Part shown: piece after piece, positions 1 to 63,852 of the stretch | Layout: the number at the start of each line of letters is the position of its first letter | How positions within the stretch are numbered: the first letter of the stretch is position 1 | IMG/VR virus record: IMGVR_UViG_3300043331_001014 | Span: 1-63,852 of that record | Origin: a virus | Length of the DNA: 63,852 nt | Direction: 5' to 3' (one strand) | Notes under the pieces: model-generated | The model's input: the letters and a program-made list of their open reading frames with translations, nothing else | Told to the model about the DNA's origin: nothing | Database searches by the model: none | Made by a program: the position numbers and the translations under genes

Positions 1-97
1 GGCAAGGCCGGGCATGGCGCGGCAAGGCCGGGCATGGCGCGGCGAAGCAATCCACGGAAATTACATGCGTATAGCGATCTCGATGTGCCGGCGTCAT
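1..97. repeat. Terminal direct repeat, left copy (genome closure)
   Basis: These 97 bases recur exactly at 63756-63852, so the contig closes on itself. The copy includes two 20-bp units of a GC-rich tandem repeat (1-40), of which three are visible at the right end, and the start codon of the glycosyltransferase gene. An exact 97-base overlap may be an assembler artefact of a circular or permuted genome rather than a true physical terminal repeat. Confidence 0.95.
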
Positions 98-820
98 CCG
101 GACAGCCAGCATCCCGATAACAAGAGGGCCTACGAGAATCTGCGCAAATTTGGCCTGCCGATCGGTGTCGATCACCATCTGATTTTCGAGTTCGTCGACG
201 GCATGTCGCTCTTGCCTTGGGCACGCAGCCTCAACATCGCTGCCTGTCTCGGGCAGGGAGCCGACTACATCTTCATCGTCGATGACGACGTATGGTTCCG
301 CCGCGAGGATATTGCCTCGGCGATCAAGTCGGACCTGCCGATCGTCGGCTTTCCGGTGTTCCTGAAGACCGAGGACATCAACTGCCGCACGCTGAACTAT
401 TCCGTGCTCCCCGGCGACAAATTCGTCGACCCGGACAAGGATTTCCGCCACGTCGCGCGCATCGGCACTGGCGCGATGCTGGTCAAGGCTGAGGTGTTCC
501 GCGCTCTGCAGAAGACCCGGCCTTTTTTCCTGTGCGAGGGCTTCCAGTCGATGCGGCCCGAGTTCAAGATTCAGGAAAACTGCTACGATTATTTCCCAAC
601 CGGCGTGCGCGACCTCGATGGCGCGCCGCGCTATATCGGCGAGGATTATGGGTTCTGCATGGAGGCGGCGAGCGTCGGCTATCCGGCCTTTGCCCATGGC
701 ACATCGGTTACGGCGCATATGATCGCCGGCCATGATGATGGTTTCCTGTGCGATATGAACCAGATGCGCTACCGGGCCTCGATTGGCGATCTGCCCGAGG
801 GCAAGGTTTTCAACATCTAG
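65..820 (+). CDS. Glycosyltransferase-like protein (GT-A fold)
   Basis: A 251-residue protein. The start at 65 (MRIAISM) is preferred over the ATG at 14, which lies in the repeat array. Residues about 70-85 hold a run ending in VDDDV, which fits the metal-binding DxD motif of GT-A enzymes, preceded by a hydrophobic strand (YIFIV). The spacing of LNIAAC, GAD and the DxD motif is typical of phage-encoded glycosyltransferases that modify DNA, virion proteins or host surface sugars. No signal peptide is visible. It is transcribed away from the pentamer array that closes the genome and is followed by a promoter-like site and a structured region. The substrate cannot be told. Confidence 0.7.
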   Translation: MRIAISMCRRHPDSQHPDNKRAYENLRKFGLPIGVDHHLIFEFVDGMSLLPWARSLNIAACLGQGADYIFIVDDDVWFRREDIASAIKSDLPIVGFPVFLKTEDINCRTLNYSVLPGDKFVDPDKDFRHVARIGTGAMLVKAEVFRALQKTRPFFLCEGFQSMRPEFKIQENCYDYFPTGVRDLDGAPRYIGEDYGFCMEAASVGYPAFAHGTSVTAHMIAGHDDGFLCDMNQMRYRASIGDLPEGKVFNI

Positions 821-824
821 TTGC

Positions 825-852
825 TTGACGGAGCGCTGTCGCGGCGTAAGCT
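825..852 (+). promoter_or_regulatory. Possible sigma70-type promoter
   Basis: TTGACG at 825-830, a 16-base spacer and TAAGCT at 847-852. It lies just after the glycosyltransferase stop codon and would start a transcript ending at the terminator at 1062-1082, with no convincing gene between. The -10 match is only moderate. Confidence 0.35.
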
Positions 853-1082
853 GGATGAGCGTATTGGCATGGTGCCGGCGCGAAACTTAGTCAGCCGCAA
901 GGGGAATCGGGACTCGAACGCCACAACGTTCATGCAATGCGGTTCGGGATGCATTCCTGGACTGGACTATGGGAAGGATTACTCAGGACCCTCTCGGCGG
1001 GTGAACCAGCTCGGACCACATGCCACTGGCGCCGAGAGGGGTTCATCCGGGCAAAAAAATAGGGCGCCAGAAGCGCCCTTTT
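853..1082 (+). ncRNA. Candidate structured RNA ending in a Rho-independent terminator
   Basis: No credible protein is encoded here; the 87-codon frame has no recognisable features. Stems visible in order are GAACG/CGTTC (916-920 with 927-931), AATGC/GCATT (936-940 with 951-955), TCCTG/CAGGA (955-959 with 974-978), and a perfect 11-bp stem 979-989 with 1030-1040 extended by CCAG/CTGG (996-999 with 1026-1029). The region ends in the terminator hairpin at 1062-1082. The order of nested stems plus promoter and terminator suggests a discrete RNA of about 220 nt. No known RNA family is recognised, and the strand could be the opposite one. Confidence 0.4.
1052..1082. terminator. Bidirectional Rho-independent terminator
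   Basis: Stem GGGCGC (1062-1067), loop CAGAA, stem GCGCCC (1073-1078), then TTTT on the + strand. Seven A residues upstream give a T-run on the - strand. It separates the rightward glycosyltransferase unit from the end of the leftward early operon. Confidence 0.8.
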
Positions 1083-1136
1083 GAGTTTGGTGTCATAGTC
1101 CGTTTGTTTCAATCCACGCCCCCGCTGGGAGGCGAC

Positions 1137-1253
1137 TTATAATCCGAATCGATCCGGGTCTATTAGCCCCAGAAGATAGCCGATGCCGATCAGGATGATA
1201 TATCCGACCGGCGTCAGGAACAGAAATGCGCTCAGCAGAGATAGCCAGTCCAT
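1137..1253 (-). CDS. Small membrane protein, 38 residues
   Basis: Last gene of the leftward early operon. The ATG follows a good ribosome site (AAGGAG, 6 bases before the start). After MDWLSLL the chain is almost wholly hydrophobic (about residues 4-30, with FLFLTPVGYIILIGIGYLL), ending in a short polar tail DPDRFGL. One membrane-spanning helix, possibly a tight hairpin, is predicted. It lies next to another membrane protein gene, so a holin-like or membrane-remodelling role is possible but not shown. Confidence 0.6.
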   Translation of the reverse strand: MDWLSLLSAFLFLTPVGYIILIGIGYLLGLIDPDRFGL

Positions 1254-1264
1254 AGGTTTCTCCT

Positions 1265-1618
1265 TTACGGTAGAAAATACGCCGCCAACGGTCCGCCAGC
1301 GACAATCAGCGAGATCAGGCCGAAAGTCACGGCAAGCTCGAATGCGTCTTTCTGCATGGCCCGGCCGACCTTATAGCCGGTGAACACCGAGATGGCGATC
1401 ACGTTGACCAGCGCCGACAGGAAGTAGATGCCTTCCCATTTGCCTCTGGTCAGCATGATGAGGAACAGCAGTATCGTCGGGATCGCCATGGTGAACATGA
1501 CGTTGATCAGCGTCTCCAAGGACTTGTTGCCCATGGACGGCTTGCCGCCCAGGTAATGAGCGCCCCAGAACACGCCGATCGTCATGGCGATATTAAACAA
1601 CTTCAGGGCTTGATCCAC
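1265..1618 (-). CDS. Four-helix membrane protein, unknown
   Basis: A 117-residue protein starting at GTG 1618, chosen because GGGAGAAG precedes it. Four hydrophobic segments (about residues 6-24, 36-56, 66-86 and 93-115) fit an integral inner-membrane protein. It overlaps the upstream 60-residue gene by 26 bases, so translation is probably coupled. No family is recognised. With its two small membrane neighbours it forms a membrane-active end to the early operon. Confidence 0.65.
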   Translation of the reverse strand: MDQALKLFNIAMTIGVFWGAHYLGGKPSMGNKSLETLINVMFTMAIPTILLFLIMLTRGKWEGIYFLSALVNVIAISVFTGYKVGRAMQKDAFELAVTFGLISLIVAGGPLAAYFLP

Positions 1619-1775
1619 TGGACTTCTCCCATTTTGCGAGTAACGCCTTGACGGTGGCGACATCCATCACCTTGCCCTGCCAGATGACCTTGCGGTCTTT
1701 CACGGCAATGGCGGCTTTATAGGCCGAGCTGAGCGAGCGGTAGGCTTTCGCGGTGGCCGGAATGTCCTGGGTCAT
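1593..1775 (-). CDS. Small soluble protein, 60 residues, unknown
   Basis: Starts MTQDIPATAKAY at 1775 with AAAGG 6 bases upstream. Its ATG overlaps the stop codon of the 36-residue gene before it (ATGA). The sequence is basic and helical with no zinc or catalytic motif. The phrase IWQGKVMDVATVKALLAKW suggests a small alpha/beta fold. Translational coupling on both sides supports its being a real gene. Confidence 0.6.
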   Translation of the reverse strand: MTQDIPATAKAYRSLSSAYKAAIAVKDRKVIWQGKVMDVATVKALLAKWEKSSGSSPEVV

Positions 1776-1882
1776 GTCAGCCTTTCCCAAAGTTTGGTGG
1801 CGAGCAGAGCTGCCGCCCACAGATAGATCAGATGTGGAACGGAATCGAGATTGATCACTGTCGCCGCGCAAAATACGGTCAT
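1772..1882 (-). CDS. Small membrane peptide, 36 residues
   Basis: Preceded by a strong Shine-Dalgarno site (GGAGGT, spacer 6) and a short GCTC/GAGC hairpin. The chain is MTVFCAATVINL followed by a hydrophobic stretch (HLIYLWAAALLATKLW) and a charged end, so one membrane helix is likely. It ends in an ATGA overlap with the next gene. Its first bases and leader resemble those of the 13-codon frame at 3861-3902. Confidence 0.55.
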   Translation of the reverse strand: MTVFCAATVINLDSVPHLIYLWAAALLATKLWERLT

Positions 1883-1918
1883 TGTTACACCTCCATTGAA
1901 TGCTCGGGAAATGAGCTA

Positions 1919-1946
1919 ACGCAGCGGGCCGAAGCCCGCCGCTGAC
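1919..1946 (-). promoter_or_regulatory. Post-stop hairpin with UUCG loop
   Basis: On the - strand the stop codon at 1949 is followed by a GC-rich stem closed by C(UUCG)G. There is no T-run, so it looks more like an mRNA-stabilising or processing element than a terminator. Similar elements follow several genes of this operon. Confidence 0.55.
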
Positions 1947-1948
1947 GA

Positions 1949-2416
1949 TTACTTGGAATTATGTGCGGCTTCGACCATTTCGGTCAGCCAATCATTGTAT
2001 TTAGCCCAGGCAGCAGCCCCGGTAGCATCCCAGGCAGCATCCCAGGCAGCAGCCCAGGCAGCAGCTCCGGCAGCATCCCTGGCAGCAGCTCCGGCAGCAG
2101 CTCCGGCAGCATCCAGAGCACACCGGCGAGCAAAATCGCGGAGAATCGGTTCGCCATCGATGCGCCAGAGAATGGTACGGTGAGCGCAGACGAATTTGTC
2201 GTTATGACGTTCGGCAATAGCTGAGCAGGAGACCCGGCAAATGGTGTTGCCGGGCGCATAGGTTAGTGCGTCTAGGATTTTTTCGGCAGCGTGAAGGCCG
2301 CGTTTGCAAATCGCAAGATCGCCGTCGATCGACAGCAATTCGCCGTCTGTTGGAATTGGCGAGCCGTCGCGCAAGGTCTCGCCGACGAAATGCCAAGCGA
2401 GTGTTGTGTCGTTCAT
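1949..2416 (-). CDS. DUF7666-like phage protein with alanine-rich repeats
   Basis: A 155-residue protein. The N-terminal part (AWHFVGETLRDGSPIP, LHAAEKILDALTYAPGNTIC, CAHRTILWRIDGE) matches a domain family common in phages and plasmids. After residue 100 comes a run of pentapeptides of the type A-A-(W/G)-(D/A)-A, encoded by imperfect 15-bp repeats (about 2005-2110). It ends in a WLTEMVEAAH tail. A strong ribosome site and a GGTC/GACC hairpin precede the start. Function is unknown; the repeats may form an extended amphipathic helix. Confidence 0.7.
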   Translation of the reverse strand: MNDTTLAWHFVGETLRDGSPIPTDGELLSIDGDLAICKRGLHAAEKILDALTYAPGNTICRVSCSAIAERHNDKFVCAHRTILWRIDGEPILRDFARRCALDAAGAAAGAAARDAAGAAAWAAAWDAAWDATGAAAWAKYNDWLTEMVEAAHNSK

Positions 2417-2457
2417 AATTCACCTCCATAGATTGTGGTCAGAAAGGACCTAATGAA

Positions 2458-2559
2458 ATGCCTCCAGGTAAAGGATATCCGGGTTTACAGGTCGAGAAAA
2501 AAGGTGGCAAGAAGGGCGGAAAAAATGGCGGTAAAAAGGGCATTAAAAGGGGCAAATGA
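2458..2559 (+). CDS. Possible 33-residue lysine/glycine-rich protein
   Basis: On the strand opposite to its neighbours. ATG 2458 has AGAAAGGA upstream at a 9-base spacing. The peptide MPPGKGYPGLQVEKKGG continues as repeats of GKKGGKN type and is strongly basic, as in nucleic-acid-binding tails. No promoter is visible. It could be a chance frame in purine-rich DNA. Confidence 0.4.
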   Translation: MPPGKGYPGLQVEKKGGKKGGKNGGKKGIKRGK

Positions 2560-2565
2560 GCGTAA

Positions 2566-2587
2566 TGGGTGGAGCCGAAGCTCCACC
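2566..2587 (-). promoter_or_regulatory. Strong intergenic hairpin with UUCG loop
   Basis: A 9-bp perfect stem (GGGTGGAGC/GCTCCACCC) with loop UUCG when read on the - strand. It lies 18 bases after the stop codon of the 121-residue gene. No T-tract follows, so it is probably a stability or processing element of the early mRNA. Confidence 0.55.
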
Positions 2588-2604
2588 CACCGCGCCGGAG
2601 GTGA

Positions 2605-2970
2605 CTATTGCGCTGCTGCCTCGCTCGCCCAGAAGCTGAAAAACTTCTCAGGGTCCTCTAGGGCTGCTCTTTGGATCTTGGCAGCTCGCACATCGAGCGG
2701 CAGCACCCTGATCCGCGACAGCGGCGCCGAGGTGCCATTGCGCAAATCTTGGATCAGCATCTTGCGATGCGGCACCAGGGCGACAGGGTGAAGGATCTTG
2801 GTGCCGGCCATACCGACCGGCTCTGCTCGAACGCAGAACGCAACAGTGGTCAAGCCGTCTACTTTCACAGGCATGGGCGTCAGTTGCAGGCGAGCGCCTG
2901 GGGTTATCAGCCCGGCCAGAAAGCCGGCGTCAACGATCTCCTCCTCGGAAATCTTGTCAAAACCTGACAT
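2605..2970 (-). CDS. Unknown early protein, 121 residues
   Basis: Starts MSGFDKISEEEIVDAGFLAG after a GGAGGTG ribosome site and a GGTC/GACC hairpin. The first 45 residues match the next gene upstream (3109-3276), so the two arose by duplication. The middle is rich in beta-type residues (LTTVAFCVRAEPVG) and the end is helical. No catalytic motif is seen. Confidence 0.6.
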   Translation of the reverse strand: MSGFDKISEEEIVDAGFLAGLITPGARLQLTPMPVKVDGLTTVAFCVRAEPVGMAGTKILHPVALVPHRKMLIQDLRNGTSAPLSRIRVLPLDVRAAKIQRAALEDPEKFFSFWASEAAAQ

Positions 2971-3108
2971 ATATTCTACACCTCCATATGGTCGTAATGA
3001 CCTAATGAATTGACGGAGTTGATGGTTTAACGGGATCAGTAGCTAACCTACCGCAGTCTCCGAACCATCTTCGCTCGCAAGCACGACGCTCCGCCCCGCC
3101 CCAAATAC

Positions 3109-3276
3109 TCATTTCTTCTTGCGGCATACCTTCTTCTTTGCATTGCGATAGAGGGCGATGCCATAGACCCTGACTGGCAGCGGCGTCAGACCCAGACGGG
3201 CGCTTGGCGTCAGCAGGCCGGCAAAGAATGCCGCATCGGCAATGCCATCGGATGAGATTTGATCAAATCCGCTCAT
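3109..3276 (-). CDS. Short paralogue of the 121-residue early protein
   Basis: A 55-residue protein (MSGFDQISSDGIADAAFFAG, then LLTPSARLGLTPLPVRVYGI). It aligns with the N-terminus of the product of 2605-2970 but ends in a basic tail (NAKKKVCRKKK). The ribosome site is GGAGGTG, and a perfect GGATGA/TCATCC hairpin stands 5 bases before it. The stop codon and new tail look like a truncation of a tandem duplicate. Confidence 0.6.
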   Translation of the reverse strand: MSGFDQISSDGIADAAFFAGLLTPSARLGLTPLPVRVYGIALYRNAKKKVCRKKK

Positions 3277-3347
3277 AATTTACACCTCCATTTCGGATGA
3301 CAGTCATCCGGCCCATGCGCCCGCAGCGGAGCGCATGAACGAGAGGA

Positions 3348-3803
3348 CTATTCGTCTTCGTCTTCGTCTTCGTCTTCGTCTAGGGGCAGGAACGCCGGCC
3401 AGTTGGCCTCGCCGGTGGCTTTTAAATGCTCCAGCACTTTGATGGCAATCTCAGAGCGTTCTTGTTCGGGGAGGGAGTCGAAGCGATTTCTATCGTATTC
3501 ACTGCCGTTCATGTAGAATAGCGACAGAGCGGTGCGCCGCTCAATGCCGAGCCACGCTGAGCCGATGTTGACGTATTCGTAAGGATCTTTGTTGAATTGC
3601 AGAGTCTTATCGGTAGCGCCAGCCTGACGTTGCAGGTGCTGATCGATCCAGCCAGCGAGGCAGAAGGCGGTATTGCAATATTCGTATTTCACGACGGTGG
3701 TCTCGGGCCTGTCGAGATAGGATGCCCAGTCGCCCATGATGAAATGCTTGCCTTGGTCGGTTTTAATCCATGCGATCAGTTGGTCAATATGCTCGATATT
3801 CAT
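3348..3803 (-). CDS. Unknown early protein with acidic DE-repeat tail
   Basis: A 151-residue protein. The start MNIEHIDQLIAW is chosen because GGAGGTATCG precedes it. The body contains WASYLDRPETT and CNTAFCLAGWIDQHL and looks like a small helical domain. The last 10 residues alternate Asp and Glu, encoded by a 6-bp tandem repeat at 3351-3380 that could vary by slippage. Acidic tails of this kind occur in DNA-mimic and chaperone-like proteins, but that is inference only. A GGC/GCC hairpin lies before the ribosome site. Confidence 0.6.
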   Translation of the reverse strand: MNIEHIDQLIAWIKTDQGKHFIMGDWASYLDRPETTVVKYEYCNTAFCLAGWIDQHLQRQAGATDKTLQFNKDPYEYVNIGSAWLGIERRTALSLFYMNGSEYDRNRFDSLPEQERSEIAIKVLEHLKATGEANWPAFLPLDEDEDEDEDE

Positions 3804-3860
3804 CGATACCTCCATTGGTTGTGGCAAATGGCCTAAGAAATATGCGGCTTGTGTTCGTGG

Positions 3861-3902
3861 CTATCGTCTATCATATTCTGTCTTTGCGCGCCGTACGGTC
3901 AT
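3861..3902 (-). CDS. Possible 13-codon leader peptide
   Basis: ATG 3902 has a GGAGGT site 8 bases upstream, as strong as any in this operon, but the frame (MTVRRAKTEYDRR) closes after 13 codons. A second 13-codon frame overlaps its end. It may be a leader peptide or a remnant of a gene like the 36-residue one at 1772-1882, with which it shares its first bases and leader. Confidence 0.35.
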   Translation of the reverse strand: MTVRRAKTEYDRR

Positions 3903-3985
3903 TGGCACACACCTCCATTGGATAGGATGGTGCGCATGGGCTGAGGGGAGCGGAATACGCCCGCTCCCCAAAGCCTTATTCTAGG

Positions 3986-4309
3986 TTATTCGGCGCCGTC
4001 ACCGCCGGACGATCCGCCGTCAGAGCCGCCAGCGCCGCCGATCGCGCCCTCAGGCGGATAGGCATTCACCGAACGGTTCCAGCAATAGGCCGCGATCTCG
4101 TAGGGAATGAAGTCGGCATTGCAGCCGCCCGCATCCCGAACGCCTTCCCAGGTGCTCAGAGCATGGGCTTCGGCCTCACGGTTGACATAGTCGATTGCCG
4201 GCTGCGACAGGGTCGGCTTGTAGGCCAGTCCTGCCGAGACATCGAAATCCTGCGCCTGTGCCGCGGAAATGCCGAAGATCAGTGCCAGAGTGATGATAGA
4301 GGTCTTCAT
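3986..4309 (-). CDS. Secreted (periplasmic) protein, unknown
   Basis: A 107-residue protein. The start MKTSIITLALIFGISAAQA is chosen because it begins a classical signal peptide with an AQA cleavage site and has GGAGAC upstream. The mature part has two cysteines (GGCNAD, AAYCWN) that could form a disulfide, and ends in a glycine/serine-rich acidic tail. It is likely exported to the periplasm by the host Sec system. A superinfection-exclusion or envelope role would be plausible but is not shown. Confidence 0.6.
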   Translation of the reverse strand: MKTSIITLALIFGISAAQAQDFDVSAGLAYKPTLSQPAIDYVNREAEAHALSTWEGVRDAGGCNADFIPYEIAAYCWNRSVNAYPPEGAIGGAGGSDGGSSGGDGAE

Positions 4310-4471
4310 ATTAATAGTCTCCATTTTGGCAAAATTGCCTAACAGCCAGCAGCTAAGCCACTGGCCAATATGATAAAATATAGATGGAGGAGGTGGCTTG
4401 TTTCTATCCACATCTCTAAGTAGAGATGACATTTTGAACCAATGCGCTCACAGACGCGGGCGCTGCTGTTG

Positions 4472-4855
4472 TTATTCGGATGGAGCGAGGTGAGATAGCA
4501 TCTCAATGATGGCTGGTTCGACGAACACCATCGGCAAATCGTCAGCGATGGGGACGTTGAAGATTTTGGCTGCCGCCTCGCGTTTAAGGTGTGCGATTTC
4601 CCCAGTGCGAAAGGCGCCGCTTGGCTTGATTGAGCCGTTCGGTTCTTTGTCAGACTTGGCTTCGTCGACGCCTACCAAGGCAATATAGCCGTTATCGTAA
4701 AGCTGGGTGTGCTCTTGGCACAGTCCCCAGCCGGTGACGGTGTAGCGCTCAAAGCTGTCGCGTAGTCTTCGGTCCATGATTATGGTGCCGGTATCATATT
4801 TGCGACCGCAGACCATGCAGGCTTTTTGCTCCATGGTTACATAAGATTTATCCAT
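4472..4855 (-). CDS. Zinc-ribbon-type phage protein
   Basis: A 127-residue protein. CMVCGRKYD (residues 13-21) and later WGLCQEH provide two Cys pairs/His that fit a zinc knuckle. The phrase RRLRDSFERYTVTGWGLC and the following YDNGYIALV are characteristic of a conserved phage and plasmid protein of unknown function. Ribosome site AAGGAG lies 10 bases before ATG 4855. Confidence 0.65.
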   Translation of the reverse strand: MDKSYVTMEQKACMVCGRKYDTGTIIMDRRLRDSFERYTVTGWGLCQEHTQLYDNGYIALVGVDEAKSDKEPNGSIKPSGAFRTGEIAHLKREAAAKIFNVPIADDLPMVFVEPAIIEMLSHLAPSE

Positions 4856-4963
4856 TGCTGTTGTTCTCCTTCGCGTGCGTGCGCAGATCTATAGCACGAG
4901 CGCCCGCGCGTGAGAGCACATTGGTTCAAGCTGCTTACGGCCTGCAAGGGTGCCCAAACTGGG

Positions 4964-5434
4964 CTAGAATTGGGGTGCCGGGTGATATTCCGGCCTGGAC
5001 ATATAGAGGATGGAAAGCTCGCCATCGCGATATTTGACCGGCATCAGCGCCAGCGATTTCAGCGCCTCTTCATAGTAGATGCCCCAGATCTTTTGCGCCA
5101 CGTCATGATCGAAGATCAGCGTGTCAGCCGAGGCAATCTCCTGCGGGATGTGATAGGGGAACCCATCGACCACCGTGTACTGGACAAAGGTCAGGTGATG
5201 GCCGATGATGACGCCGGAAACGGTGAACGCTTCCTTGATGATGCCGGTGTAAAGTTCAGCCCATTTGGCGTTTCTGTTGTTCTCGTCGTGGCCCAAATCC
5301 CGGACGTTGTCGCCGGGCTCGGGTGCGTCGAGAATACCGCGGATGCTGTTGAGTGCATGGGCCATGTCGACCGGCGCGCTGTTGGCGCTGACGGTGCCCA
5401 TGATCGTTGCGATTGCACGTTCGCGTTGAGACAT
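4964..5434 (-). CDS. Unknown early protein, 156 residues
   Basis: Starts MSQRERAIATIMGTVS with GGAGGT 6 bases upstream. The N-terminal half is helical; the C-terminal half (VIIGHHLTFVQYTVVDGFPY) is beta-rich. No motif of known function is seen. The coding region is followed by a GCCCA/TGGGC hairpin just after the stop codon. Confidence 0.6.
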   Translation of the reverse strand: MSQRERAIATIMGTVSANSAPVDMAHALNSIRGILDAPEPGDNVRDLGHDENNRNAKWAELYTGIIKEAFTVSGVIIGHHLTFVQYTVVDGFPYHIPQEIASADTLIFDHDVAQKIWGIYYEEALKSLALMPVKYRDGELSILYMSRPEYHPAPQF

Positions 5435-5545
5435 AATAAAACCTCCATGGTTGCATAAGCTGGGCACCCATGAAGGCCGTAAGCTCGACACCCATTCGCC
5501 TTGTGGCGGCACTCGCCCGCGCCTGAGCACGGGCAAGGCTACAAG

Positions 5546-5743
5546 CTATCTTGTCGTCACAAAATCCATTGTGACACTGAGGACGTTGTCGTAATCTCCT
5601 GCCATTGCTTTCTTGGTGTAGTCGGCAATGGCGTCATTATCCACTCCGGCGTCGCGCATGGCTTTGGCCGTGCGCCCGATGATGGCGCAGGCATTGCCAT
5701 CCTTGCCGGTAAGCTGGACTGTGACATGGGGAAATATCGGCAT
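5546..5743 (-). CDS. Conserved small phage protein, 65 residues
   Basis: MPIFPHVTVQLTGKDGNAC with AIIGRTAKAMRDAGV and a final AGDYDNVLSVTMDFV. This pattern recurs in many phage, plasmid and actinobacterial genomes as a short hypothetical protein. A very strong ribosome site, AGGAGG, lies 6 bases before the ATG, only a few bases after the previous stop codon, so the two genes are probably co-translated. Confidence 0.7.
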   Translation of the reverse strand: MPIFPHVTVQLTGKDGNACAIIGRTAKAMRDAGVDNDAIADYTKKAMAGDYDNVLSVTMDFVTTR

Positions 5744-5752
5744 TTTGTCCTC

Positions 5753-5959
5753 CTATTCGAATATGACCGTCAGACGGACCTTGCGTCCATCTTCCAGCCG
5801 CGCCGTGATCTGATGGCGCTGCCGGTCGACAATAACACTGCCGTAATGCACGTCGCCAACTTCGGGTATCAGCTCGGCAATCTCGCCGATGATCTCCTGA
5901 TCCGAAGCATAGCACTGGCCAGAGAGCGGGTGCCGGCACTGCTGTTGAAGCATGGTCAT
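5753..5959 (-). CDS. Unknown early protein, 68 residues
   Basis: Starts MTMLQQQCRHPLSGQC after GGAGGTGTACCT, itself preceded by a GCGGC/GCCGC hairpin. Two cysteines near the start could bind metal, and the rest (VIVDRQRHQITARLEDGRKV) is beta-rich. No family is recognised. The stop codon lies 9 bases before the next gene's ATG. Confidence 0.55.
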   Translation of the reverse strand: MTMLQQQCRHPLSGQCYASDQEIIGEIAELIPEVGDVHYGSVIVDRQRHQITARLEDGRKVRLTVIFE

Positions 5960-6045
5960 AGGTACACCTCCAAATGCGGCATGAGCGCCGCCAGAAGGCG
6001 AACAGGTGAGGGTTGCAATCGGCTCGAAGGGACGGCACACTGGCC

Positions 6046-6339
6046 TTAGTAGCTCATGCCGGCTCGCTTGAGGCAATGCGCATAGCGGGTGAGCACATTG
6101 CCGAAGCGAATCAGGTCGTCAGGATCTGATTTGTCGACGATTTCGGTTTCGTAGGCGTCGGGGTCGTTGGACGGCCCCAGCGGACTCGGCCTGAACTGCC
6201 AATCGCTGGGCGTCTCGACTCCATGGATAAACGTCAAGCTGTCAGCGATAGCAAACCACCAACCCATGGTTGAACCCCATGGGTCGCCAGGATCGAACAT
6301 AATCTTAAACTCGGATTTGATCTGAGCATAGTTGTACAT
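6046..6339 (-). CDS. Unknown early protein, 97 residues
   Basis: Starts MYNYAQIKSEFKIMFD with GGAGG 5 bases upstream and an ACCT/AGGT hairpin just before. It contains GSTMGWWFAIADSLTFIHG and ends helical with two cationic residues around a cysteine (AHCLKRAGMSY). Tryptophan-rich and acidic; no known motif. Confidence 0.55.
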   Translation of the reverse strand: MYNYAQIKSEFKIMFDPGDPWGSTMGWWFAIADSLTFIHGVETPSDWQFRPSPLGPSNDPDAYETEIVDKSDPDDLIRFGNVLTRYAHCLKRAGMSY

Positions 6340-6470
6340 GGGGGCCTCCAATACCTGTCAGGTGCCGCCCATTGGAGCCGATTGCATGTTCCATCACCCG
6401 AGCAGGTGAAGGAATCTATTCACGATGGTTGACATCATTCGATCATCTTCAAGGGCAGCCAATGGGCTGC

Positions 6471-6674
6471 TTATTCTTTTGGTAATTTGAAGCCTGCCAG
6501 CCACACAAGCCCGCGCGTATTGCGTAGGCGTTGGAGTATCGCGGCATCATCGTCAGATGCAGGGGCATATGATGACCGCTCCCAGCTATAGCGGAGCGAT
6601 GATTTCCAGGTGCGCCCAGCCCTGCGTGCGAAGCGGCGAATGGCTTCAAGTTCTCTTGTGTCGATTTCTGTCAT
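6471..6674 (-). CDS. Conserved small phage protein, 67 residues
   Basis: MTEIDTRELEAIRRFARRAG followed by TWKSSLRYSW and LQRLRNTRGLVWLAGFKL. This is a frequent small hypothetical protein of phages infecting many bacteria, predicted helical and basic. The AGGAGG site and an ATGG-GCAA-CCAT hairpin precede the start. A GCAGCC/GGCTGC hairpin follows the stop codon. Confidence 0.7.
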   Translation of the reverse strand: MTEIDTRELEAIRRFARRAGRTWKSSLRYSWERSSYAPASDDDAAILQRLRNTRGLVWLAGFKLPKE

Positions 6675-6792
6675 GGTTCCTCCTATGGTTGCCCATGGAG
6701 ATGATCGATACAGCAGCGATCGCAAGGTGGGAGCGCTGCTGTTGATCCCCGAGAGCTTGCAGAGGCAGAGCGCGAACGCTCTACCCCGACTG

Positions 6793-7098
6793 TTAGGCTT
6801 GCTGGCGCAGATCGATGTAAGCGCTTATGGTCTCGGCGGGTGCCGGCCTCGTCACATCGTCGCCATAAGGATTGAGGATACTGTCGCACCATTCGTGTAC
6901 ATCGGCAAAGCCTGACACCAGCATAGCAAATATCAGTGGGCGTAGCTTTTCAGGCACCATGGCCTCAACAGCCGCGCTCTCATAGCCCTTGGCATACCAG
7001 CCGGGGCAAGTGCGGGTGCCGGGCACATAGGACGCCTCACGAATGTCATGCGTGCGCTTGATGTGTTGCGCTAGCTCGATCATGGATCTGTCATCCAT
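6793..7098 (-). CDS. Unknown early protein, 101 residues
   Basis: MDDRSMIELAQHIKRTHDIR with GGAGGTG upstream and a perfect CGGGCA-TAA-TGCCCG hairpin. It contains a single CPGWYAKGYESAAVEAM segment and a DVHEWCDSIL motif. Predicted mostly helical. A 9-bp hairpin closed by UUCG follows the stop codon. Function is not recognised. Confidence 0.6.
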   Translation of the reverse strand: MDDRSMIELAQHIKRTHDIREASYVPGTRTCPGWYAKGYESAAVEAMVPEKLRPLIFAMLVSGFADVHEWCDSILNPYGDDVTRPAPAETISAYIDLRQQA

Positions 7099-7190
7099 AG
7101 CTCACACCTCCAATCGGGCATTATGCCCGTGGAAGCTCTCAGGGTGTGCAGATGGCCCACAAGGGCAGCCCGAAGACTGCCAAAGAGGGG

Positions 7191-7406
7191 TTAGATAATC
7201 CGCATGTATTCCCAATCGAGCGCCCAGATTTTCAGGCGCCGCTTGGCTTGCGGGTGATCCAGCTTGACAAGCACATAGGCACTGGTGCCGTTCTTGCCAT
7301 GCCGGAACGATGTCACCTCACCGAAGCGAGCGCCTCGCATCCACATGTCGTAGTGGACAGGAATTTCGACGCGCGCGCCAATCGGCGGATGGTTGATCAC
7401 AGTCAT
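7191..7406 (-). CDS. Conserved small phage protein, 71 residues
   Basis: MTVINHPPIGARVEIPVHYD then MWMRGARFGEVTSFRHGK and LDHPQAKRRLKIWALDW. This small beta-barrel-like protein is common in tailed phages and has no assigned function. GGAGG precedes the ATG, and a CAAGG-GCAA-CCTTG hairpin abuts the ribosome site. A C(UUCG)G-closed hairpin follows the stop codon. Confidence 0.7.
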   Translation of the reverse strand: MTVINHPPIGARVEIPVHYDMWMRGARFGEVTSFRHGKNGTSAYVLVKLDHPQAKRRLKIWALDWEYMRII

Positions 7407-7502
7407 GAGTTTTCCTCCAAGGTTGCCCTTGAAGGCCATCTGCACGGGTGCCGGTCATCCTCTCGGATGAGGCCCAAGTCAATCCTCGGGCCTCTGCCAA
7501 TC

Positions 7503-7952
7503 TCACGCCAGTGCGAGTTGCTTGAGCGTCTCGACAGTGGCAGTCGTCTTCGTCGCCTTGGCAGCAGCCTTGGCCTTGCGCGCATCAGCCGACGCTTTCG
7601 CACGAGCCTTGCGCTCTTCATTGATCTTGGCGAGAATAGCCCGTTCGTCGTCATCCAACTCACGGGTCGTCTCGTCATCGCCAAACATGGCTTCGAAGTT
7701 GATGAGCTGCGTATCGGCGACGCGGAGAGCGTGAAGCGCCTTAGTCTGTGTCTCGGAAAGCTCCTTGCCCGCGTCCACAGCCTTCTCAAGCTTCGAGAGC
7801 TTTTCCATCACTGCGAGGCGTGTAGCACGCCACACCAGCGACGGCTTGGCTTCCGGCTTGGCTTCCTGCACGCGTTTGATCACGGTGAGGATAGCACGAG
7901 CGCCGGCAACCTTCTCGATCACTGAGAACGGACGATTGGACAGATTGGTCAT
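7503..7952 (-). CDS. First gene of the early operon, helical basic protein
   Basis: A 149-residue protein. A GGAGGTG site and a perfect GATGGG/CCCATC hairpin precede the ATG. The N-terminal half is a mixed helical region (VIEKVAGARAILTVIKRV). From about residue 105 it becomes a charged coiled coil ending in an Ala/Lys-rich tail (KARAKASADARKAKAAAKAT), suggesting nucleic-acid or histone-like binding. As the promoter-proximal gene behind a perfect sigma70 promoter it should be the earliest and most expressed product. Function is unknown. Confidence 0.65.
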   Translation of the reverse strand: MTNLSNRPFSVIEKVAGARAILTVIKRVQEAKPEAKPSLVWRATRLAVMEKLSKLEKAVDAGKELSETQTKALHALRVADTQLINFEAMFGDDETTRELDDDERAILAKINEERKARAKASADARKAKAAAKATKTTATVETLKQLALA

Positions 7953-8038
7953 AGTACACCTCCATAGATGGGATGAGCCCCATCCGGGAAGATGACCGGC
8001 TTCACGATGTCAAAGAACGATATTCAATTGTAGCCACC

Positions 8039-8067
8039 ATTATAGCATAACGAAATAGCGTTGTCAA
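8039..8067 (-). promoter_or_regulatory. Perfect sigma70 consensus promoter of the early operon
   Basis: On the - strand TTGACA (8062-8067), a 17-base spacer and TATAAT (8039-8044) match the consensus at all 12 positions. Transcription would start near 8032 and run left into the early operon, leaving an 80-base leader. A palindrome, CAACC-TAA-GGTTG, at 8069-8081 adjoins the -35 box and may be an operator. Confidence 0.9.
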
Positions 8068-8087
8068 CCAACCTAAGGTTGTATCCC

Positions 8088-8582
8088 ATGTTTTCCGAAG
8101 ATCAGCCTCATCTTGCACGGGCTTCATACGCAGACCCAGAAGAGAAGGCGCAGATCATTGCTGCATGTTTCGAGAGCATGAGAGCAGGGGCAACACTGAA
8201 TATTGCCGCATTGGAGCATGGATACTCGCCAGCGACGATTTGGCGGTGGATTCATCAAGATGAGATGCTGATTGTTGAATATGAAAAACTCAAAGTGCAG
8301 CGTTCGAGAGCTTTAATAGAGCACGCATTGTATGAAATGCAGCAAGCGTCAACACTAGAGCAAGCAAAACTGGCCGATCGCAAAGCAATGCTCTATCTAC
8401 GTATGGCAGCTAAGCTTAATCCGAAGGAATTTAGTGACCGGATGCACTCACCAATACTTGGAAAGAACTCTGGATCAGGTCGCGTAAGCTTTACATTGAA
8501 CATTGGTGGCCCAACGAATACTTCAGCGCAATCTATGGGTGAGTTGCAGGTGATTGAGCAATCAGAGGATGGTGAAGAGTAG
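8088..8582 (+). CDS. Probable terminase small subunit (Sf6 gp1-like)
   Basis: A 164-residue protein from ATG 8088 (AAGG 9 bases upstream; a TTG at 8061 is a weaker alternative). Residues about 27-52 form a helix-turn-helix (TLNIAALEHGYSPATIWRWI). Residues about 100-125 (LADRKAMLYLRMAAKLNPKE followed by FSDR) match the typical oligomerisation end of Sf6-like small terminases. Its role would be recognition of the packaging site and loading of the large subunit. The large subunit gene is 6.5 kb downstream, which is unusual, so a DNA-binding regulator is an alternative. Confidence 0.55.
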   Translation: MFSEDQPHLARASYADPEEKAQIIAACFESMRAGATLNIAALEHGYSPATIWRWIHQDEMLIVEYEKLKVQRSRALIEHALYEMQQASTLEQAKLADRKAMLYLRMAAKLNPKEFSDRMHSPILGKNSGSGRVSFTLNIGGPTNTSAQSMGELQVIEQSEDGEE

Positions 8583-9015
8583 GTAATAGTGTACCAATTG
8601 CTCATAATAGAGCTTATGCGTATAGGCGTGTGGTACGTGCATACCTCAAACGCCTGCTAGGTAGACCCCCACCCCCTCATGCAAGATCGGGCCATAGCCA
8701 AGGATCGAGCGCGCGTGAGGCATAGGCGAGGCACCGGGGGCTTGTACTTAGCCTATGAACCACACTCGCGGATGAGGGCGCCTCGGTCCAGCTCGGGCTC
8801 CCATCCCTCTGAAGAGCTGGTTAGCCTCCCCGCGCAGGAGTCATTGCCACACACCAACCCCCTGCGCACGCGCGATCGCGCTACCCCGGCCGGGCTATGC
8901 GGGTTATCCAACCCTTGCCAAAGGTAGGATAGCCGGGCGATCGGCTGGCGGATGTGCCGGGGCGTGAACGTTAATTCTTGACATTCCTGTTCACGCTCGC
9001 CATTTTCTGTTCACT
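8583..9015. other. 433-base noncoding region after the terminase-like gene
   Basis: The only open frame here (8679-8927) has shadow-like composition and no ribosome site. The region has inverted repeats: CCAGCTC/GAGCTGG (8790-8822) and GGTTATCC/GGATAGCC around 8902-8934. It ends in the promoter and operator of the AT-hook gene. A packaging (pac/cos) site or origin is possible because it adjoins the putative small terminase gene, but nothing proves this. Confidence 0.4.
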
Positions 9016-52564: not shown

Positions 52565-52619
52565 GAGTTGAGTCGAGGAGAGCTGAGACGAGGGGAGCAG
52601 AGCGGAGTTGAGGGGAGCC
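52565..52619 (+). repeat. GAGNN pentamer array, 11 units
   Basis: Eleven consecutive exact GAGNN units, starting 23 bases after the previous array and ending one base from the stop codon of the leftward gene. Confidence 0.9.
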
Positions 52620-53226: not shown

Positions 53227-53301
53227 GAGTTGAGAGGAGGTGAGCAGAGCAGAGGCGAGTTGAGTGGAGCCGAGGCGAGTTGAGTGGAGCCGAGACGAGA
53301 C
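53227..53301 (+). repeat. GAGNN pentamer array, 15 exact units
   Basis: Fifteen consecutive GAGNN units. Within it a 20-base block (GAGGC GAGTT GAGTG GAGCC) occurs twice in tandem (53252-53271, 53272-53291), suggesting growth by block duplication. On the transcribed - strand it reads as CTC repeats in the leader of the gene at 52621-53208. Confidence 0.9.
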
Positions 53302-55031: not shown

Positions 55032-55116
55032 CTCGGCTCCTCTCACCTCTGCTCGGCTCGATTCATCTCGTCTCGGCTCGCCTCATCTCGGCTCCGTTCC
55101 ACTCAACTCAACTCAA
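55032..55116 (-). repeat. GAGNN pentamer array in inverted orientation, 17 units
   Basis: On the + strand 17 units of CTCNN type (15 CTC, two TTC) fill the leader of the next gene; this is GAGNN read on the - strand. A 41-codon frame (55012-55132) runs through it and ends in an ATGA overlap with the following gene. Confidence 0.9.
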
Positions 55117-63695: not shown

Positions 63696-63805
63696 TGCCG
63701 TGCATGGCAGGGCCGAGCTAGGCTAGGCTAAGCCCGGCAAGGCCGGGCATGGCGCGGCAAGGCCGGGCATGGCGCGGCAAGGCCGGGCATGGCGCGGCGA
63801 AGCAA
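63696..63805 (+). repeat. Pentamer array of GCNNG type at the genome closure
   Basis: About 22 units with GC at two fixed positions. The last 12 form three tandem 20-base blocks (63736-63795) of four pentamers each. On closing the circle it lies directly upstream of the glycosyltransferase gene. The copy number may be collapsed in the assembly. Confidence 0.9.
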
Positions 63806-63852
63806 TCCACGGAAATTACATGCGTATAGCGATCTCGATGTGCCGGCGTCAT
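63756..63852. repeat. Terminal direct repeat, right copy
   Basis: Identical to 1-97 over 97 bases, including the start of the glycosyltransferase gene. The circle therefore has about 63755 unique bases. Confidence 0.95.

Follow-up and report, generated by a model that had tools for sequence, protein, structure and literature searches.

Predicted hairpin pairs at the gene junctions of a leftward operon in an unclassified phage

Our subject is a run of small genes, read leftward, in the IMG/VR virus record IMGVR_UViG_3300043331_001014, and the hairpins predicted to form in its transcript where one gene ends and the next begins. The window is the whole record of 63,852 bases. Its last 97 bases (63756-63852) are identical to its first 97 (1-97), so the circle is probably complete. 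The phage is unclassified; its terminase, portal, tail and head proteins match phage families. Eighteen small open reading frames (ORFs) of the leftward operon begin behind a Shine–Dalgarno sequence (SD), with starts running from 7952 down to 1253. One more ORF (1593-1775) lacks an SD, and we left it out of all start counts. The whole gene run has one consensus sigma-70 promoter and one U-tract terminator:

1137-7952, minus strand: the operon, 18 small ORFs with an SD and one without (1593-1775)
8039-8067, minus strand: sigma-70 promoter of the operon, 12 of 12 consensus positions, spacer of 17, TG before the second hexamer
1061-1079, minus strand: U-tract terminator at the end of the operon

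For a phage, the genes of this operon are widely spaced: the median gap between neighbours on the same strand is 92 nucleotides (nt), against 13 nt elsewhere in the genome. GGAGG precedes 12 of its 17 called starts and 7 of 65 elsewhere, in a comparison where the gene calling already favours starts that have an SD. A promoter of host type, and proteins that are small and for the most part unknown, suggest an early operon.

What fills the gaps is, in large part, predicted RNA structure. For the strongest local fold within the 60 nt that follow each stop codon, the operon averages -14.65 against -10.57 in shuffled sequence (z -6.1), while 64 genes elsewhere average -10.8 against -10.0 (z -2.6). 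The initial annotation had put a stable stem after the stop codons, and for the operon as a whole it was right; stop by stop, an individually outstanding hairpin, matched by no more than 3% of 60 shuffles, follows 8 of the 18. None of these hairpins, nor any other junction hairpin tabulated here, is followed by a U-tract, the only U-tract terminator being the one at 1079-1061. The junction hairpins are therefore not terminators, which rules out an intrinsic terminator at each junction. The post-stop hairpins are these:

7469-7494, minus strand: hairpin after the stop of gene 7503-7952
7164-7181, minus strand: C(UUCG)G hairpin after the stop of gene 7191-7406; 7% of shuffles equally strong
6762-6787, minus strand: hairpin after the stop of gene 6793-7098, its UUCG loop closed by G-C
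6455-6470, minus strand: hairpin after the stop of gene 6471-6674
5513-5535 (ends approximate), minus strand: hairpin after the stop of gene 5546-5743
3945-3969, minus strand: hairpin after the stop of gene 3986-4309
3314-3337, minus strand: hairpin after the stop of gene 3348-3803
2564-2591, minus strand: C(UUCG)G hairpin of 12 pairs after the stop of gene 2605-2970
1921-1942, minus strand: C(UUCG)G hairpin of 9 pairs after the stop of gene 1949-2416

UUCG loops had been reported at four places. Three of them (1921-1942, 2564-2591 and 7164-7181) are indeed C(UUCG)G hairpins; the fourth, near 6765, is not of this extra-stable type because G-C closes its loop.

The second structure lies at the other end of the gap, just before the next gene. 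Here we scored the best perfect stem within 40 nt before the SD, with its 3' arm ending 0-9 nt from it. Fifteen of the 18 operon starts have such a stem of at least 3 pairs and negative energy. Summed over all 18, the stem energy is -66.9 kcal/mol, compared with -32.9 (standard deviation 9.4) in 1000 dinucleotide shuffles (z -3.6), an excess smaller than that of the post-stop hairpins. Stems of -2 kcal/mol or below number 12 of 18 where 6.3 are expected, and the maximum among the 1000 shuffles is 13. Eighteen other SD starts of the same genome have no excess (z +0.6). The operon stems are also stronger than those at 229 GGAGG starts of 86 other loci (Mann-Whitney p 0.0019), a control set of ORFs found mechanically, some of which will not be genes. 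All four stems singled out at the outset (GGTC/GACC, CGGGCA/TGCCCG, GATGGG/CCCATC and CAAGG-GCAA-CCTTG) are present in the following set:

7967-7984, minus strand: stem GATGGG/CCCATC with loop GCTCAT, before gene start 7952
7414-7435, minus strand: hairpin CCUUCAAGG-GCAA-CCUUGGAGG, which includes the CAAGG/CCTTG stem (7418-7431) and pairs the SD of gene 7406
7115-7129, minus strand: stem CGGGCA/TGCCCG, before gene start 7098
6685-6696, minus strand: stem ATGG/CCAT with a GCAA loop, before gene start 6674
6353-6363, minus strand: weak stem ACCT/AGGT, before gene start 6339; pairing probability 0.07
5976-5991, minus strand: stem GCGGC/GCCGC with loop GCTCAT, before gene start 5959; homologous to 7967-7984
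5442-5476, minus strand: hairpin with arms CCUUCAUGG and CCAUGGAGG, which pairs the SD of gene 5434
4328-4339, minus strand: stem GGCA/TGCC, before gene start 4309
3823-3833, minus strand: weak stem GGC/GCC, before gene start 3803; pairing probability 0.37
3294-3310, minus strand: stem CGGATGA/TCATCCG, before gene start 3276
2990-3002, minus strand: stem GGTC/GACC, before gene start 2970
2437-2450, minus strand: stem GGTC/GACC, before gene start 2416
1902-1916, minus strand: stem GCTC/GAGC, before gene start 1882; pairing probability 0.10

The 188-nt gap preceding gene 1949-2416 also holds, on the plus strand at 2458-2559, an antisense ORF for 33 amino acids rich in Lys and Gly. It has a possible SD, which overlaps the GGTC/GACC stem.

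Folding whole junctions changes the picture of these 5' stems, which are often the inner part of a longer helix rather than free-standing. Some of the longer helices take in the SD itself, as CCUUCAAGG-GCAA-CCUUGGAGG does at 7406 and CCUUCAUGG with CCAUGGAGG does at 5434. The predicted cost of opening the SD has a z of +2.3 over the 18 operon starts and +0.8 over 18 controls. At the seven starts nearest the promoter (7952, 7406, 7098, 6674, 6339, 5959 and 5434) it reaches +3.7, and at seven distal starts it is -1.4, in a split that we chose after seeing the data and that places 5743, 4855, 1618 and 1253 in neither group. The probability that the SD is unpaired is close to zero at 7952, 7406, 7098, 5959, 5434 and 3902. 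On these predictions, several promoter-proximal junctions would be better described as hairpins that bury the SD, and the distal ones fit free standby hairpins. One mechanism need not cover all the junctions, because the opening cost is high in the proximal group and not in the distal one.

Buried SDs raise the thought of translational locks, in which the proximal hairpins shut the SD until a ribosome, a helicase or a phage protein opens it. As described in the published account (PMC3014915), T4 holds the SDs of a few genes (e, soc, 49 and I-TevI) in a helix on a longer transcript, and each inhibited gene has a late promoter that yields an open transcript. In the operon, a helix that holds the SD is predicted at several promoter-proximal starts, and not at distal ones, and set against 117 GC-matched starts the opening cost of the proximal group stands out (p 0.0008). 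Over all 14 GGAGG starts, however, the same comparison gives p 0.046 only, and the p value of the proximal group carries the post hoc grouping with it. Many junctions of one operon are involved, where that account has a few T4 genes. A minus-strand scan, which covers the sigma-70 type only, found no promoter-like site at these junctions that could yield an open transcript as in T4, and the first genes after a consensus promoter are odd targets for silencing. We consider such locks unlikely. We also rejected an RNA thermometer: between 20 and 42 °C the probability of an unpaired SD is nearly flat at most of the 18 starts (the largest rise, from 0.21 to 0.44, is at 5743), which speaks against one.

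The succession of two hairpins at many junctions, the first a stable one after the stop codon, would also suit RNA processing. A ribonuclease would cut between or within the paired hairpins, leaving each cistron with a protective hairpin at its 3' end and another at its 5' end; that the hairpins are not terminators agrees with this. Single-stranded A/U-rich hexamers are predicted in 8 of 15 intergenic regions and in none of the other 7, so those 7 offer no obvious site of the RNase E type, and this speaks against a general RNase E cut. RNase E-type processing across the junctions is thus not generally supported by the predicted folds, and we rate processing as distinctly improbable.

How the junctions came to be alike is a separate matter; inside the genome they form a loose repeat family. 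Across the 12 junctions compared, only the GGAG of the SD and the ATG are invariant and the stem arms vary. A MAFFT alignment of these 12 misaligned the stems at several, and when junctions 7406, 6674 and 5434 were aligned together the result was too ragged for counting pairs. Junctions 7952 and 5959 align without gaps from the hairpin through the SD, with loop and SD identical. Over the 18 nt of the hairpin they differ at seven positions, six of which make up three compensatory pairs in a six-pair stem. The probability of three such pairs is 0.0007 under random substitution and 0.013 with changes confined to the stem; when the partner is slid by 1-3 columns as a control, no pair is changed on both sides. 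A letter shuffle gave 71 of 500, a comparison that is weak with two sequences.

The initial annotation had seen in the varied stems a sign of selection on structure. Three compensatory changes around a conserved loop fit that idea, as do a set of hairpins that is non-random and confined to the operon, while a second pair of junctions (7098 and 2970) stands at the level of chance. The compensatory changes give the idea limited support that is thin and after the fact, and they would fit selection on RNA or on DNA.

The same family resemblance could come from a few gene-plus-leader cassettes that were duplicated, their palindromes being seams of recombination, sites that act in the DNA, or relics without a regulatory role as RNA. 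The dispersed junction repeats D3, D5, D6, D7, D8 and D10 are what such copying would leave, and the proteins of 2605-2970 and 3109-3276 have similar N-termini (MSGFDKISEEEI and MSGFDQISSDGI), so that a gene was apparently copied along with its leader. Relics should lose their pairing, yet the 7952 and 5959 stems have changed and still pair; a site acting as DNA would be expected to retain its sequence. We think cassette boundaries a rather improbable explanation. Sixteen of the 17 bases at 5443-5459, in the leader of 5434, recur at 4829-4845 within the first codons of gene 4472-4855 (repeat D18), as if a junction had been copied into the gene or the true start of that gene lay further in.

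Several known devices of phages and bacteria invite comparison: intercistronic hairpins that stabilise the 3' end, the RNase III sites of T7 and the CUUCGG hairpins of T4. Like them, the operon has stable predicted hairpins between genes, without U-tracts and some with UUCG loops; unlike them, it has a second hairpin at the next SD. No known Rfam element accounts for them, since a search of 1-9000 gave two sub-threshold snoRNA-like matches only. Hairpin promoters of the N4 type were set aside, the loops and arms having no common sequence.

Another close parallel lies in the cluster K mycobacteriophages, where, in the published account (PMC3203893), start-associated sequences (SAS) with upstream inverted repeats (ESAS) occur at many non-structural gene starts. 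The SAS is a conserved 13-bp sequence. The ESAS is an inverted repeat of 17 bp, also conserved, and where copies depart from it the changes do not speak for pairing as RNA. Both systems have repeated elements at gene starts, with one part conserved at the SD and inverted repeats immediately upstream. On that account's description, though, the operon junctions differ: they share the SD only, their stem sequences vary and the 7952/5959 pair shows compensation. Membership of the SAS/ESAS family can be rejected on both elements, with GGAG and ATG alone invariant in place of a 13-bp start sequence, and with differing arms and three compensatory pairs in place of a conserved 17-bp repeat. A narrow search of titles and abstracts in the open-licence literature found no report of an operon-wide hairpin arrangement. 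Each part is known in kind; what is unusual is that they recur, in differing sequence, at most of the junctions in a single operon.

The arrangement is real, non-random and confined to this operon. The reading that we favour, with moderate confidence, is that the hairpin pairs are post-transcriptional punctuation of one transcript, by which the translation and stability of each cistron are set locally. A single RNA, begun at the promoter (8067-8039) and ended at the terminator (1079-1061), would span 18 or 19 small genes, and at most junctions it would form two local domains. The first, a stable hairpin after the stop codon, would act as a 3' stabiliser or a roadblock to exonucleases. The second, abutting or including a strong SD (GGAGG, often GGAGGTG), would set how easily a ribosome binds. 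Long SDs paired with hairpins fit a rule reportedly due to de Smit and van Duin, in which the strength of an SD can make up for the structure around it. Together the two would make each cistron a separately folded unit, and the hairpins would probably tune translation and messenger survival gene by gene, a prediction drawn from one genome. We infer both the formation of these hairpins in the cell and all the effects on decay and translation described here.

A bolder version has the whole operon under gene-by-gene RNA locks: hairpins conserved in structure and free in sequence would close the ribosome-binding sites, most strongly near the promoter, and one phage or host RNA-binding factor would open them together, so that expression of the set would be timed after transcription. 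We regard this as a long shot.

A number of results weigh against punctuation as a general account. Ten of the 18 stops have no outstanding hairpin, and three of the 18 starts (5743, 3902 and 1253) have no qualifying 5' stem. Start by start, 7 of the 18 stems reach p<=0.1 and most individual stems are unexceptional. When the anchor is slid along the leader there is a local peak of -3.7 at the SD and a higher one of -5.7 about 20 nt upstream. Pairing probabilities in context are 0.07 for the stem of 6339, 0.10 for that of 1882 and 0.37 for that of 3803. The claim that about a dozen junctions share the same layout is therefore overstated: the stems are non-random as a set and occur at 15 of 18 starts, but with most unexceptional singly, the strongest structure lying upstream and many stems inside larger helices, the layout holds loosely. 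The SD-opening effects run in opposite directions in the proximal and distal halves of the operon. Junctions 7098 and 2970 show one compensatory pair and two broken ones (P 0.35). Lastly, a megablast search of 1100-8100 against phages found no relative of the operon.

Other searches for relatives went much the same way. Against phages, tblastn found no match for the early proteins starting at 7952, 5434 and 2416, and three records at 26-29% for that of 3803, none a close relative. IMG/VR scans with the early proteins 7952, 2970 and 5434 gave no match, nor did scans with the portal and the protein of 8106-8582. The large terminase subunit (TerL) has a match at 86% on a 5.8-kb fragment without the early region and another at 40%; among its best 80 loci the range is 39-48%, with all but the 86% fragment below 50%. 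No match emerged when 18 early proteins (a 13-residue one was omitted) were searched by tblastn at E 0.01 against 86 loci (L002-L087). In 397 genomes of one bacterial order, TerL matched in 28, at 41% identity at best.

One further feature of the operon may bear on its host. The stretch between the last stop codon and the terminator holds, immediately behind the stop codon, the following:

1106-1136, minus strand: solitary type I-C-like CRISPR repeat of 31 nt

Arrays in two Rhizobiaceae (L140 and L094) have repeats of the same 31-nt length with 2 of 31 differences, both in the hairpin loop, and L140 also has, beside the array, a Cas2 and a partial Cas1 that matches the type I-C Cas1 family best. 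An exact copy of the repeat is absent from the genome contigs database searched, a version with the two loop positions free is absent from IMG/VR, and none with up to one mismatch occurs in the 397 genomes. No spacer among 1302 from arrays matches the window over its full length. Solitary repeats of phages can act as RNA anti-CRISPRs, and a proven type I-C example shares an operon with an acr gene, which it follows at a distance of 11 nt (PMC10651486). The repeat at 1106-1136 is thus a possible RNA anti-CRISPR, and together with the Rhizobiaceae arrays it suggests that the host is rhizobial and that part of the operon acts in counter-defence.

Elsewhere in the window, a 12-bp tandem repeat at 2003-2111 gives the DUF7666 protein of gene 1949-2416 an Ala-rich end, and three short arrays of 20-bp units, possibly iterons, lie in the replication-gene region at 52575-52618, 53247-53299 and 55032-55109.

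Single phage genes with structured ribosome-binding sites are already well known. If the punctuation of this operon is true, its junctions would be a natural series in which the effects of RNA structure on translation and decay could be measured gene by gene. They would also be an example of structure retained without sequence, in hairpin pairs that are diverse in their letters and alike in their place.

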